From positions 2,480,001-2,544,000 of the forward strand of contig NZ_NRGW01000001.1 in assembly GCF_002332255.1 (NCBI RefSeq): a stretch of 64,000 nt of DNA. Direction: 5' to 3'. The stretch comes from Halomonas sp. JB37. GTDB lineage: Bacteria; Pseudomonadota; Gammaproteobacteria; Pseudomonadales; Halomonadaceae. A program made the position numbers and the translations under genes. Positions 15,226-19,113 of the stretch are shown here, piece by piece. Every line of letters begins with the position of its first letter. The first letter of the stretch is position 1. Below the pieces are notes generated by a model. It did not search any database. It saw nothing but the letters and a program-made list of their open reading frames with translations, and had not been told where the DNA came from.

Positions 15226-15459
15226 ATGGCTAGCCCTGCAAATGATTCCCCACTCGAGGTTAACTGCCCACAGTGCGCCAAGCCCGTTCAGTGGCTACCA
15301 GAAAGTACGTATCGCCCTTTCTGCAGCAAGCGCTGTCAGCTGTTAGATTTAGGCGCCTGGGCCGACGAATCACACCGTATATCAGGTGAATCGGCGATGG
15401 ATGAAGCTGATATCGAAACACTGTTAGCGCAAGCGGATAAAGATGCGCCCCTTTCTTAG
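15226..15459 (+). CDS. yacG: Zinc-binding DNA gyrase inhibitor YacG
   Basis: Small zinc protein of 77 residues with cysteines at 14, 17, 33 and 37 (NCPQC and FCSKRC), which hold one Zn2+. In E. coli YacG binds GyrB and inhibits gyrase. [11 protein letters not shown] is the conserved block after the zinc site, and the tail is acidic. GGAG precedes the ATG. It directly precedes the interrupted Tus-family gene. Confidence 0.94.
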
Positions 15460-15717
15460 ACAAAAACGTCAATCAAAGCGGCCTTAGCGAGCCACGTGAC
15501 TAAACATGACTACCAATAAACCAGGATCATCGTCGCCCGCCGCCTATCAACTGCTGCTCAAACTAGAGCAGCAGTTTGACTATTTGCTCGCCACCATAGA
15601 TACCGCTGCCTCGCTATACGAGCAACAATCACCGGCGACCTGGGTCTTTCATCAAACGACGCCTTCGCATCACTGGCTGCGGGAAGCACTGTTCGATATG
15701 TGGCATGAGCAGGATCA

Positions 15718-15725
15718 AGATGGCC
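15718..15725. repeat. Left target-site duplication of the IS66 element
   Basis: AGATGGCC immediately before the left end of the element. It is identical to the copy at 18063-18070; 8 bp is the duplication length of the IS66 family. Confidence 0.93.
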
Positions 15726-15749
15726 GTAAGCGCGCCACTAACCACATCT
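15726..15749. repeat. Left terminal inverted repeat of the IS66 element
   Basis: 24 bp, matching the reverse complement of 18039-18062 at 23 of 24 positions. Confidence 0.93.
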
Positions 15750-15762
15750 AGCTAAGCATTTC

Positions 15763-17373
15763 TCAGGTAGGTAAGGTTTCTTTCCAGTGCCAGGGCAACA
15801 GTGCACTGAGATCGTCTTCGTTCAGCGTCGGCAGCGTTTCGAAGACGTGCTGCAGGTAGCCGTAAGGCGACAGGCCGTTGGCTTTGGCCGTTTCGATCAG
15901 GCTGTAGATTGCCGCGCTTGCTTGCGCTCCGCTTGGCGTGTGGCTGAACAGCCAGTTCTTACGGCCAACCACGAAGGGACGGATGGCGTTTTCGGCCGGA
16001 TTGTTATCCAGCGGGATGCACCCGTCGTCAAGGAAGCGGGTCAGGCGTGGCCACTGGCCATCCAGATAGTGCAGGGCTTTCCCTAGCGTGCTTTTGGGTA
16101 GCACCTGCGCCTGGGACTTGTCGAGCCAGGTGCGCAGTTGAGTGATCAGTGGGCGGCTCTTTTGATCGCGTAACGCCTGGCGTGCTGCAGGTGCCAGCGC
16201 TCTGGCCTGTTTTTCAACGCCATAGAGCTTGCTGATCTGGTTCAGCGCCCATCCGGCCTTGCCGGTTTTATTTTTCGGCTGCGCTTTCTGAGCCTCGATG
16301 AACTTGCGGCGAGCATGCGCCCAACATCCAGCATGGGTGATGTCATTACGCCGCACGACCTCGGCATAGCCTTCATAACCATCGGTGAGCAGGCAGCCAC
16401 TGTAATCGCCCAACAAGCGTAGGGGCACACGCCCGGCACGACTGGGGTCATAGTCGAACAACACGACCTGTTGACCCGGCGGACCACCGCGCTGCACCCA
16501 CATGTACGAGGTGGCGCTGGCCTTGCGGCCTTCTTCCTGATTAACCTGCAGGGTGGTCTCATCCATGTGGATCAGCGGGGCGTTTAGCAGTTGCTTACGC
16601 AGCGTCTCGATCAGCGGCAAGAGGCGCTCACCGGTCTGCACCATCCAGCGTGCCAGTGTATTTCGAGGCAGATGGGCACCGTGGCGGGTAAAGATCTGGC
16701 TCTGCCGGTAAAGCGGCAAGGCATCCTGGTACTTCGCGGTAGCGACATAGGCCAGTAAGGTGGCACTGGCATTGCTCTTGGGCAGCAGCTTGGCCGGTGC
16801 CGGGGCGGTCTTGACGTTTCCTTCGCAGATTGGGCAGGCGTATTTACGCCTCACATGACGGATCACTTCTACCCGTGCGGGCACAACATGAAGTTCTTCA
16901 CTGACCTCTTCACCGATGACCTTAAGCTCGGTGCCGTCTTCGGCACAACAACGCTCGGTAGCGTCCAGCGTATGCACCACCTCGACACGAGGCAGTTCAG
17001 GCGGCAAGGCGACGCGTCCGCCGCGGGTACGCTTGTTGGCCGAAGGTGCGACATTATCAGGCGGCGTTGCAGAAGCGTCGCCATCGGCGACGTCAGCGGG
17101 CGCCTCATCTGCGGCACCTTCGTCGTCATCGACGATGAGTTCGGCCTCATTAATCAGCAGATCGCCCTGCTTGATGCCGTACTTTTCCGTGGAAGGGCCA
17201 AACTGGCGTTCTAATGCCAGGCGGAACTGCTCATAAAGTGACTGTTTGGTGGCTTCCCACTGCGCCTCTTTTTTCTCCATCAGGCGATGAAGTTGCGCAA
17301 TCTCTTGCTGCTGCGCTTTGACCTGGCGCTGCAGTTGGGAGATGTCCTGGGCGGGGGGCGTGGTGCTTTTCAT
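15763..17373 (-). CDS. tnpC: IS66 family transposase TnpC
   Basis: DDE transposase of 536 residues. The N-terminal leucine-rich coiled coil (QLQRQVKAQQQEIAQLHRLM) is followed by an acidic linker and the zinc-finger-like domain (KYACPICEGNVKTAP). The catalytic core shows HMDETTLQV, LLTDGYEGYAEV, CWAHARRKF and PLDNNPAENAIRPFVVGRKN, covering the DDE triad. The C-terminal YGYLQHVFETLP and LLPWHW are typical of the family. It looks intact. Confidence 0.96.
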   Translation of the reverse strand: MKSTTPPAQDISQLQRQVKAQQQEIAQLHRLMEKKEAQWEATKQSLYEQFRLALERQFGPSTEKYGIKQGDLLINEAELIVDDDEGAADEAPADVADGDASATPPDNVAPSANKRTRGGRVALPPELPRVEVVHTLDATERCCAEDGTELKVIGEEVSEELHVVPARVEVIRHVRRKYACPICEGNVKTAPAPAKLLPKSNASATLLAYVATAKYQDALPLYRQSQIFTRHGAHLPRNTLARWMVQTGERLLPLIETLRKQLLNAPLIHMDETTLQVNQEEGRKASATSYMWVQRGGPPGQQVVLFDYDPSRAGRVPLRLLGDYSGCLLTDGYEGYAEVVRRNDITHAGCWAHARRKFIEAQKAQPKNKTGKAGWALNQISKLYGVEKQARALAPAARQALRDQKSRPLITQLRTWLDKSQAQVLPKSTLGKALHYLDGQWPRLTRFLDDGCIPLDNNPAENAIRPFVVGRKNWLFSHTPSGAQASAAIYSLIETAKANGLSPYGYLQHVFETLPTLNEDDLSALLPWHWKETLPT

Positions 17374-17418
17374 GCCTTGAAGTGTATCAAAAAACCATTA
17401 AAAAGCGGAGCAAAAAAA

Positions 17419-17775
17419 TCAGCCAACACACTTAAAATTCAATGCTTTATGAGGCTGCATGGCCTTCAGGTCATAGCCGTCTAGCAGCCAGTTCAGTTCC
17501 TGGCCACTTAAGGTCACGGCGTCACCGTCCAGGTGCGTTGGCCACTTGAATCGCTCACGCTCCAGGCGCTTATACCAGACGACAAAGCCGTTACGCTCCC
17601 AGAACAGTAGTTTGATTTTATCCCGCTGGCGATTGCCAAAGACAAACAACGCCTTATCAAACGGGTTCAGCTCCATGGCCTCCTGAACCAACAAGGCCAG
17701 CCCGTCGATCTGTTTGCGCATGTCCACCGATTCGCGACAAAGGTATACGGTCAGGTGAGTGCTCGGACGGATCAT
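17419..17775 (-). CDS. tnpB: IS66 family accessory protein TnpB (Orf2)
   Basis: 118 residues from the ATG at 17775; an open frame extends further upstream but that part overlaps tnpA in another frame. Family signatures are YLCRESVDMRKQIDGLALLV, LFVFGNRQRDKIKLLFWERNGF and WYKRLERERFKWP. TnpB is needed with TnpA for efficient IS66 transposition; its biochemical role is not well defined. The start overlaps the tnpA stop by four bases (ATGA). Confidence 0.95.
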   Translation of the reverse strand: MIRPSTHLTVYLCRESVDMRKQIDGLALLVQEAMELNPFDKALFVFGNRQRDKIKLLFWERNGFVVWYKRLERERFKWPTHLDGDAVTLSGQELNWLLDGYDLKAMQPHKALNFKCVG

Positions 17776-17984
17776 GGCGCCACCGCCACTTTTACAAAGC
17801 GGGCAGGACGATGACGGGGTGGCACCGGTAAGCCGCGAACGTTCAAACGTTTTTCCCAGAGCAGTAGATCGGCTAAGGTAAGTTCTTGTTGCGAGGCGTA
17901 TTCGCTGAGGGGAATCTCGCGCACCGAGGCGTGATACAGATGCCCGAGCCAAAACGCCTGCATGGAGTTGAGTTCTTGGATCAT
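17772..17984 (-). CDS. tnpA: IS66 family accessory protein TnpA (Orf1), short
   Basis: 70 residues, starting at an ATG preceded by AGGAG with six bases between. The segment FWLGHLYHASVREIPLSEYASQQEL matches the helix-turn-helix start of IS66 TnpA proteins (W..H...S..PLSEYA). It is shorter than many TnpA proteins and overlaps tnpB by ATGA. It is the first gene of the element's operon. Confidence 0.88.
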   Translation of the reverse strand: MIQELNSMQAFWLGHLYHASVREIPLSEYASQQELTLADLLLWEKRLNVRGLPVPPRHRPARFVKVAVAP

Positions 17985-18038
17985 GAGGATCTCCTGGATG
18001 AAGAAACCTCAGTGTGGTCAGCAAAACTCCGCTTGAGA

Positions 18039-18062
18039 AGATGTGGTTAGTGGCGCGTTTAC
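18039..18062. repeat. Right terminal inverted repeat of the IS66 element
   Basis: 24 bp ending GTTTAC; the reverse complement matches the left end with one mismatch. Confidence 0.93.
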
Positions 18063-18070
18063 AGATGGCC
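18063..18070. repeat. Right target-site duplication of the IS66 element
   Basis: AGATGGCC directly after the right inverted repeat, the same as 15718-15725. Confidence 0.93.
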
Positions 18071-18762
18071 GTGAAACACGCAATTACATTGCTATAGTGG
18101 CAGCGAACGATGAACTGCTTGCCGCGATAGGCGCTATTAATCAAGCTAAAAAAGTATTTAGCGAACTGCTACAGCGCACGAAAGAAGCTCACCCACAGTC
18201 TCTCAGTGATGCTAAAAACCACCTACCTAAGCGCCACCCGCATGTTGATGCGGTGCTTCAACGCAACGGGCTAGCACGCTTGCATCTTAAGCAAAGTTGG
18301 CGGCAGCTACCTATCGCACAGGCACCTATTTCACGCGTTCGTTTTGCGTGGTATAGCAGCGGCCGTTCCATTAAGCGGCTAACGGTACAAGAAGCGGAAC
18401 ATAAGCTATTACAGCTAGATACCGATGCCTCTCATATCCGCATCCAATTGCGTCAACTAGCGGGCATCCCAAGCGGTGAAATCCTTGCTCAGGTACAAAC
18501 ACAGGCACCGCTGATGCGTGCAAATTTATTTTTTACCGAACCGCTTGCAGATGGACACTCAAGACGAGCATTAAATGCTGCTATGCCCATATTTGTACCC
18601 GATAACAACCAGCGGCTGCCACACATTAATCTGCCTGCGCTACAACCTCCCACGACCCGTACTCGCGCTCGACGGCGTGATGAGAAAATAGAACAGGAAA
18701 TGTTTCTACCGAGCATACGCGTTTATCGCTACCGGTAGTGAAAAGTATATTTACACACGCTT

Positions 18763-19113
18763 TTAAGACTGCTCGCCGCCAGGCACCGTGTCTAATTGCC
18801 ACAATCCATGAGAAAGTAGCGTCTCAGACAGTTCTGCTAAATCATAATGCGTAAAATCATACTCGCTTAACAATGCTTCAAAGCGCTGCTGAAAAATACG
18901 CCCCTGCTCATGCTGTTGCTCTTCCTGCTTCGCGTCCAAGTCATCTTGTTCGAGCGTTGCAAGTGATCTTACCGGCGGCCCCGTAGGAATATCGAAATCA
19001 CTATCGGGGTCATCTAACTGGCGCAATGCTTGCGCAAAAGCATCGTCTAATTCACGAAATTTACGCAGCTTATCGCGCTCATCTAACTGCTTTTGAACCT
19101 TTTGATATTTCAT
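18763..19113 (-). CDS. Hypothetical charged, helical protein, 116 residues
   Basis: I do not recognise this protein. It starts MKYQKVQKQLDERDKLRKF and is rich in Gln, Glu, Asp and Arg; residues 1-40 and 50-95 look like amphipathic helices or coiled coil. The middle has a proline-rich turn (DIPTGPPVRS). There is no signal peptide or membrane segment. It converges on the Tus-family gene with a 24 bp gap. The ribosome site is weak (AAGGTG lies about 13 bases before the ATG), so the start is uncertain. Confidence 0.6.
   Translation of the reverse strand: MKYQKVQKQLDERDKLRKFRELDDAFAQALRQLDDPDSDFDIPTGPPVRSLATLEQDDLDAKQEEQQHEQGRIFQQRFEALLSEYDFTHYDLAELSETLLSHGLWQLDTVPGGEQS

Follow-up and report, generated by a model that had tools for sequence, protein, structure and literature searches.

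A divergent tus homologue split by an IS66 insertion in Halomonas sp. JB37 and a candidate Ter word oriented around dif

The window analyzed here, a stretch of 64,000 nucleotides from Halomonas sp. JB37 (NCBI RefSeq assembly GCF_002332255.1, contig NZ_NRGW01000001.1, positions 2,480,001 to 2,544,000), carries a gene that is interrupted by an insertion sequence of the IS66 family. We consider it very likely that this gene is a divergent chromosomal tus, that its intact relatives bind the 14-bp word AAGATAACGGTATA and form a replication fork trap like that of Escherichia coli, and that this trap is off in the strain of the window. Sequence comparison supports the view that the IS66 element inserted cleanly and recently, and both profile and model comparisons support the assignment of the gene as a divergent relative of Tus.

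The first-pass annotation had placed a gene split by an IS66 element at 15506-18738, and these coordinates proved right. The element shares with other IS66 insertion sequences a transposase, TnpB, matched terminal inverted repeats and an 8-bp target duplication (Table 1), and nothing unusual was seen in it. Eight base pairs is the length of target duplication made by IS66 elements, and the duplication, which had been described as perfect, is indeed exact, reading AGATGGCC on either flank. The terminal repeats are identical at 22 of 23 bases, and shuffles of the window yielded no such pair. The two gene parts stay in one frame, with 73 codons to the left, 221 to the right and one straddling codon adding up to the 295 residues that had been predicted for the joined frame, a length shared by the unbroken gene of G006, the closest relative found. 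The reading frame of the 5' part enters the element and stops at 15751, and the open frame of the 3' part starts within the element at a GTG (18043). The 5' part is 84% identical to residues 1-82 of the intact G006 protein, in a match that extends a few codons beyond the junction. The empty site rebuilt by joining the flanks aligns to G006 over 953 of 955 bases with 89.5% identity. A comparison with sister loci, proposed as a check at the outset, revealed that relatives carry an intact gene with an empty site: the target reads AGATGGTC in G006, and a single unbroken AGATGGCC is present in 7 of the 29 same-genus loci that were read.

The insertion had also been called recent and the host gene otherwise undamaged. 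This is supported by the fact that both parts are open and that polarized codon changes are alike on the sister branches, with 17 silent and 4 replacement changes on the branch of the window genome and 15 and 3, respectively, on that of G006; the inner Ter-like sites described below, which are intact, also argue for a recent event. Each gene part alone would lack a large portion of the fold. No second tus copy was found in the window genome by Pfam Ter, by a query with the 3' part or by a broad profile and, since the inner Ter-like sites are intact as well, the strain is most plausibly a natural knock-out of tus that arose recently. The loss of a fork trap, which had been suggested for the case that Tus works in this strain, is supported by inference only.

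Kinship to Tus emerges from profiles and from predicted structure. An hhalign comparison of a profile built from Halomonadaceae only (A4) with a Tus profile (A5) gave a probability of 98.2% (E 6e-14, 203 columns), and that of profile A2 with A5 a probability of 99.6% (E 8.7e-24, 242 columns), so that the homology covers most of the length of the protein. When the structure of an intact relative was modelled with AlphaFold2 and compared with known structures, the four Tus entries ranked first; the model shows the Tus fold, and its structural alignment with Tus contains 14% identical residues. The phage collection gave no match, and a PHROGs match by 1 of 29 members (E 0.0085) was taken as chance.

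A dif-like site was found exactly once per genome, at up to 3 mismatches, in all 19 same-genus genomes compared. Words whose orientation flips at dif were sought over 200 kb on each side of it in the window genome and G006, and the reverse complement of AAGATAACGGTATA, TATACCGTTATCTT, was conspicuous among them. The search for Ter-like sites that the first-pass annotation had recommended thereby provided a candidate set around this word. At no more than one mismatch, the 19 genomes contain 113 sites, compared to 12 for the reversed word, with 4-9 candidate sites per genome. For the count of orientations one site on the second contig of G002 was dropped, leaving 112 chromosomal sites. In the direction of dif, every one of the 68 exact sites reads TATACC..., and within 500 kb all 102 sites that deviate at no more than one position are oriented alike with respect to dif on both sides; leaving out the two discovery genomes, the counts are 62/62 and 93/93, respectively. 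The candidate sites are non-palindromic, lie on both sides of dif and show a uniform orientation. Among the sites within 500 kb, 34 carry one mismatch, which always falls on one of the four AAGA positions and never in TAACGGTATA. Two of four site pairs in sister genomes are located in flanks that are only 50-72% identical, whereas 13 or 14 of the 14 bases of the word are kept; the other two are in better-kept stretches that overlap open frames. In the window genome, the inner sites are found at -37.8 and -34.9 kb (both exact), +32.0 kb (exact) and +65.6 kb (one mismatch) from dif. In G006, the innermost sites bracket dif at about -32 and +32 kb. The tus homologue lies 73-225 kb from dif (median 86) and is transcribed away from it in 19 of 19 same-genus chromosomes. 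Other words were rejected as Ter candidates. Cores that resemble E. coli Ter (GTTGTAAC and related words) do occur near dif but were discarded because of their mixed orientation. The remaining oriented words (42 12-mers passed the filter, 12 of which were shown) included long ones that occur on one side of dif only and whose letters suggest tRNA gene sequence, as well as the highest-ranking 12-mer, GCTGGCGCTGGC, whose neighbours on both sides differ from copy to copy.

A link between the protein and the word is also seen beyond the genus. Across the order (145 genomes), the mean number of sites is 6.5 in the 21 genomes with a close homologue (control 1.2) and 1.19 in the 103 without a homologue (control 1.17), corresponding to a Mann-Whitney p of 2e-10 that is uncorrected for kinship; the division into near and far homologues (E 1e-25) was chosen after the data had been seen. 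The order of orientations was judged where many sites share a contig, leaving out G095, G133 and G152, the sites of which are spread over contigs. G093 has 7 forward and 6 reverse sites with a single switch around the circle, and a clean switch was also observed in G104 (4 then 4 sites), G125 (4 then 6), the main contig of G158 (4 then 6) and G182 (2 then 2). Among the genomes without a homologue, G171 and G185 nevertheless have a net 4 sites each, and the sites of G123 (8) and G196 (4), none of them exact and spread over contigs, were read as noise. At some loci a copy of the word adjoins the gene itself. Such a vicinal site is present at 9 of 27 diverse loci, in seven other genera, up to 60 bp upstream and in gene sense at no more than 2 mismatches (one of the 27, L034, is uninformative due to a wrong start). 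At up to one mismatch it was found at 10 of 80 named loci, 17-43 bp upstream and in gene sense, and these 10 are the only such matches to the word in the 80 loci. Upstream Ter-like words were also noted at three loci with distant homologues (L061, L063 and L080); that of L080, TAGATGATGGTATAAAA, about 25 bp upstream, and that of L061, GCATGTTGGTATATT, in appearance fall between the Halomonas word and an E. coli-like Ter.

The arrangement resembles the E. coli Tus-Ter system (PF05472; TerA-J) in the predicted fold and in the oriented sites on both sides of dif. As do the same-genus homologues, E. coli tus, about 93 kb from dif, points away from it. E. coli TerB lies just upstream of tus in gene sense, which is the place and sense of the candidate sites in related genera, and TerB and AAGATAACGGTATA, both read in gene sense, begin with AAG followed by GTA after six more bases. 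The G at Ter position 6 plays a role in fork blocking. Since the AAG end faces dif in both systems, the fork-blocking face of E. coli Ter would face dif here. Differences from E. coli are the low identity in the structural alignment, a different Ter word (TerB is AAGTATGTTGTAACTAAAG), the lack of a vicinal site at the window gene and, as detailed below, the residues of the C6 pocket.

Most likely, the protein of the intact relatives binds the AAGATAACGGTATA sites that flank dif and whose AAG ends point towards it, and the bound sites would halt forks that have passed the terminus, giving rise to a fork trap of the E. coli kind. The recent insertion would have split the gene in the window strain, with the consequence that the trap is probably off while the inner sites remain. 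With dnaA taken as the position of the origin, the antipode of the origin in the window genome lies about 129 kb from dif and outside the inner sites; loss of the trap should therefore move the fork meeting point, which would shift towards that antipode.

Several observations weigh against a fork trap formed by a Tus-like protein at this word. As to the protein, the likeness to E. coli Tus is absent in single-sequence and curated-model tests. Pfam Ter (PF05472) matches neither gene part, nor anything in the whole genome at E 0.001, the intact G006 protein matches no Pfam or NCBIfam Tus model, and a single-sequence search of the PDB found nothing. Of 29 diverse homologues, 11 match PF05472 at E up to 1 (best 8e-7) and 11 match NF002810 (best 1e-9), and the curated cut-offs of these family models are not reached. 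The similarity to E. coli Tus across its length that the first-pass annotation had seen in the joined sequence therefore holds for profiles and predicted structure and fails for single sequences and curated models, and the suggested search with Tus family models had the same divided result, the G006 protein being missed by the curated models and the kinship emerging from the hhalign comparison of profiles. A missing match to the Tus family had been named as grounds for giving up the idea; taken narrowly, this is what the curated models returned, and we judge it to reflect the limited reach of the PF05472 and NCBIfam models. The gene was therefore filed as a Tus homologue outside the present reach of PF05472. 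The residues of the C6 base-flip pocket of E. coli Tus, which we take to be I79, F140, H144, G149 and L150, are not kept according to the alignment. In G006, F140 aligns with H and H144 with D, and only L150 keeps its kind, with L in 23 of 29 homologues; the confidence of the model is low at residues 138-145, which weakens the view of this region.

As to the sites, 4 of the 10 one-mismatch sites beyond 500 kb from dif face the wrong way and 6 face as predicted; the TAACGGTATA core is broken in 7 of these 10, and the remaining 3, with an unbroken core, are all in the predicted orientation. Many sites, such as those at about -35, -32 and +25 kb, were inherited from a common ancestor, so that the orientation counts overstate independence, and some candidate sites lie in coding sequence. 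The 21 genomes with a distant homologue show no excess of sites (mean 2.1, control 3.1), which implies that the word is tied to the less distant half of the homologues, and 3 of the 21 genomes with a close homologue (G087, G090 and G121) show no excess either. The window contains no copy of the word at up to 2 mismatches, and its gene therefore lacks a vicinal site; no candidate site adjoining tus was found in Vreelandella, and the tus homologue of the window directly follows yacG, where the vicinal site is absent. Finally, the cumulative GC-skew maximum lies inside the innermost pair of sites in 10 of 10 genomes, in which the antipode is 87-241 kb from dif, and the skew switch does not track the side on which the antipode lies. 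The GC skew is thus non-discriminating, and two estimators of it disagree, giving +27 and -4 kb for the window genome and +19 and +4 kb for G052.

The extent to which the gene has been maintained bears on the question of whether it is needed. At E 0.001, a tus homologue is present in 59 of 61 same-genus genomes, including the window genome, and in all 53 good ones, the two misses being genomes that are 66% and 71% complete. The frame is open over at least 290 codons in 55 of the 59; the exceptions are the window genome and three others, G045, G046 and G053, in which the gene is in pieces or has a stop and which are all less than 90% complete. This conservation, together with the lack of an excess of replacement changes on the window branch, speaks against the gene being dispensable in the lineage and the insertion having removed, without selective consequence, a trap that had lost its importance. 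A knock-out strain does exist, and according to the accessible text of PMC6549158 inactivation gives no strong laboratory phenotype, so that such dispensability is a possibility, albeit a rather doubtful one. It concerns the persistence of the loss and is compatible with a divergent tus that forms a fork trap in intact relatives.

A less probable alternative is that a DNA-binding protein with a Tus fold marks or organizes the terminus, in the manner of MatP or of FtsK-guiding words, or acts as a repressor, without arresting forks. The alignment, by which the assumed lock residues are not conserved, would agree with this, as would the FtsK-guiding words, which show the same switch of polarity at dif (in the window genome 12 to the left and 1 to the right on one strand, and 1 and 16 on the other); oriented words near dif alone consequently do not prove fork arrest. 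However, the candidate sites are few, 14 bp long and non-palindromic, they face dif like E. coli Ter, and in related genera one of them is just upstream of the gene, as is TerB. That the split is an assembly error, or stems from a mixed population in which most cells have an intact gene, is very improbable, since, although the evidence comes from one assembly and copies of the element were searched around dif only, the target duplication is perfect, the element is complete with matched ends, the assembly is near-complete with two contigs, and no second copy of the element was found in the 400 kb around dif.

Homologues are not restricted to this genus. A homologue was detected in 30 of 145 genomes of the order with a single protein and in 42 with a broad profile, and in 30 of 370 genomes of the class; named relatives that carry it are mostly Vreelandella and Halomonas, and on this basis the host is taken to be a Vreelandella. 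Four same-genus genomes (G007, G054, G059 and G060) have a second, more divergent copy that is 38-54% identical. In another genus of the Halomonadaceae, the frame of the homologue (G093:C1:3012212-3013105; L036, L077) is broken near its 3' end, an exact Ter-like site lies 28 bp upstream of its start, and the genome has 13 Ter-like sites; judging from the sequence, G093 is possibly a second natural tus knock-out. Homologues with 35-51% identity to the query are found on three Halomonas plasmids, where the gene preceding the homologue is in each case either an integrase or one labelled DNA-binding protein, and AAGATAACGGTATA does not occur within 4 kb of these three loci at up to 2 mismatches. 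Two of them bear the record label DNA replication terminus site-binding protein, and the name of the protein is therefore not new. In addition, 16 records of Vibrio plasmids contain homologues with 25-29% identity, labelled hypothetical protein.

Plasmid-borne, 'mobile' tus genes are described in the accessible text of PMC6549158, and the Halomonas plasmids provide a parallel; unlike these, the window gene is chromosomal and is near dif across the genus. That text, based on a PF05472 search, lists resident tus only in most Enterobacterales, Pseudoalteromonas and Aeromonadales, and regards it as a recent domestication of plasmid genes in three gammaproteobacterial clades, which is repeated in the accessible part of PMC10331603. 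PMC8707476, as far as its text is accessible, deals with Enterobacterales. The accessible main texts of PMC6549158 and PMC10331603 do not contain 'Halomon', nor does that of PMC8707476 contain 'halomonas'. Among the openly available papers listed for Halomonas, Halomonadaceae, Oceanospirillales or Pseudomonadales, none was seen to report a fork trap in this group. The candidate site set and its geometry appear to be new, as no trace of them was found in these papers.

The features are compiled in Table 1. The small open reading frame at the TnpA position of the element was named by position alone. No near match to the IS66 element was found in the plasmid collection. The small gene that converges on the tus homologue is of unknown family, and a 120-amino-acid relative of it also adjoins the tus homologue at locus L026.

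Table 1. Features of the split tus homologue, the IS66 element and their neighbours (positions in the window), and plasmid homologues (positions in the named locus)
Feature	Position	Strand	Basis
5' part of tus homologue	15506..15725	+	73 whole codons and first base of straddling codon
3' part of tus homologue, to stop codon	18063..18738	+	94% identity to G006 over 224 residues
IS66-family insertion sequence, 2,337 bp	15726..18062	-	matched ends, target duplication, transposase and TnpB
Left terminal inverted repeat	15726..15748	+	terminal repeat comparison
Right terminal inverted repeat	18040..18062	-	1 mismatch to left repeat
Left copy of 8-bp target duplication AGATGGCC	15718..15725	.	exact
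Right copy of 8-bp target duplication AGATGGCC	18063..18070	.	exact
IS66 DDE transposase, 536 amino acids, TnpC position	15763..17373	-	PF03050 E 8e-107; NF033517 466 bits, cut-off 180
IS66 TnpB	17419..17772	-	PF05717 E 1e-39; NF033819 over cut-off
Small open reading frame, 70 amino acids, TnpA position	17772..17984	-	position
yacG (DNA gyrase inhibitor), upstream neighbour outside the system	15226..15459	+	PF03884 E 6e-24; NF001638 over cut-off
Small gene converging on tus homologue	18763..19113	-	open reading frame
Plasmid tus homologue, L343	3989-4873		divergent
Plasmid tus homologue, L344	3992-4852		divergent
Plasmid tus homologue, L345	3965-4885		divergent

With fair rather than high confidence, it can be proposed that the Halomonadaceae and several neighbouring families possess a separate resident Tus-Ter lineage that uses a Ter word specific to it and perhaps a lock other than the C6 flip, as the result of an old joint change of protein and site, and that the window strain is a knock-out of this system in which the inner sites remain. 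The accessible survey of PMC6549158 is based on PF05472, a family model that gives no match in the window genome. If the proposal is true, a group missing from the accessible parts of the surveys would have a chromosomal fork trap in which protein and site have changed together. Such a system, diverged in both protein and site, would be the fourth resident lineage and would widen the known range of tus; it would bear on the argument about the origin of tus and offer an independent pair for testing the purpose of the trap. A strain that has newly lost the protein while retaining the inner sites, together with a sister species in which protein and sites are present, would represent a natural experiment.

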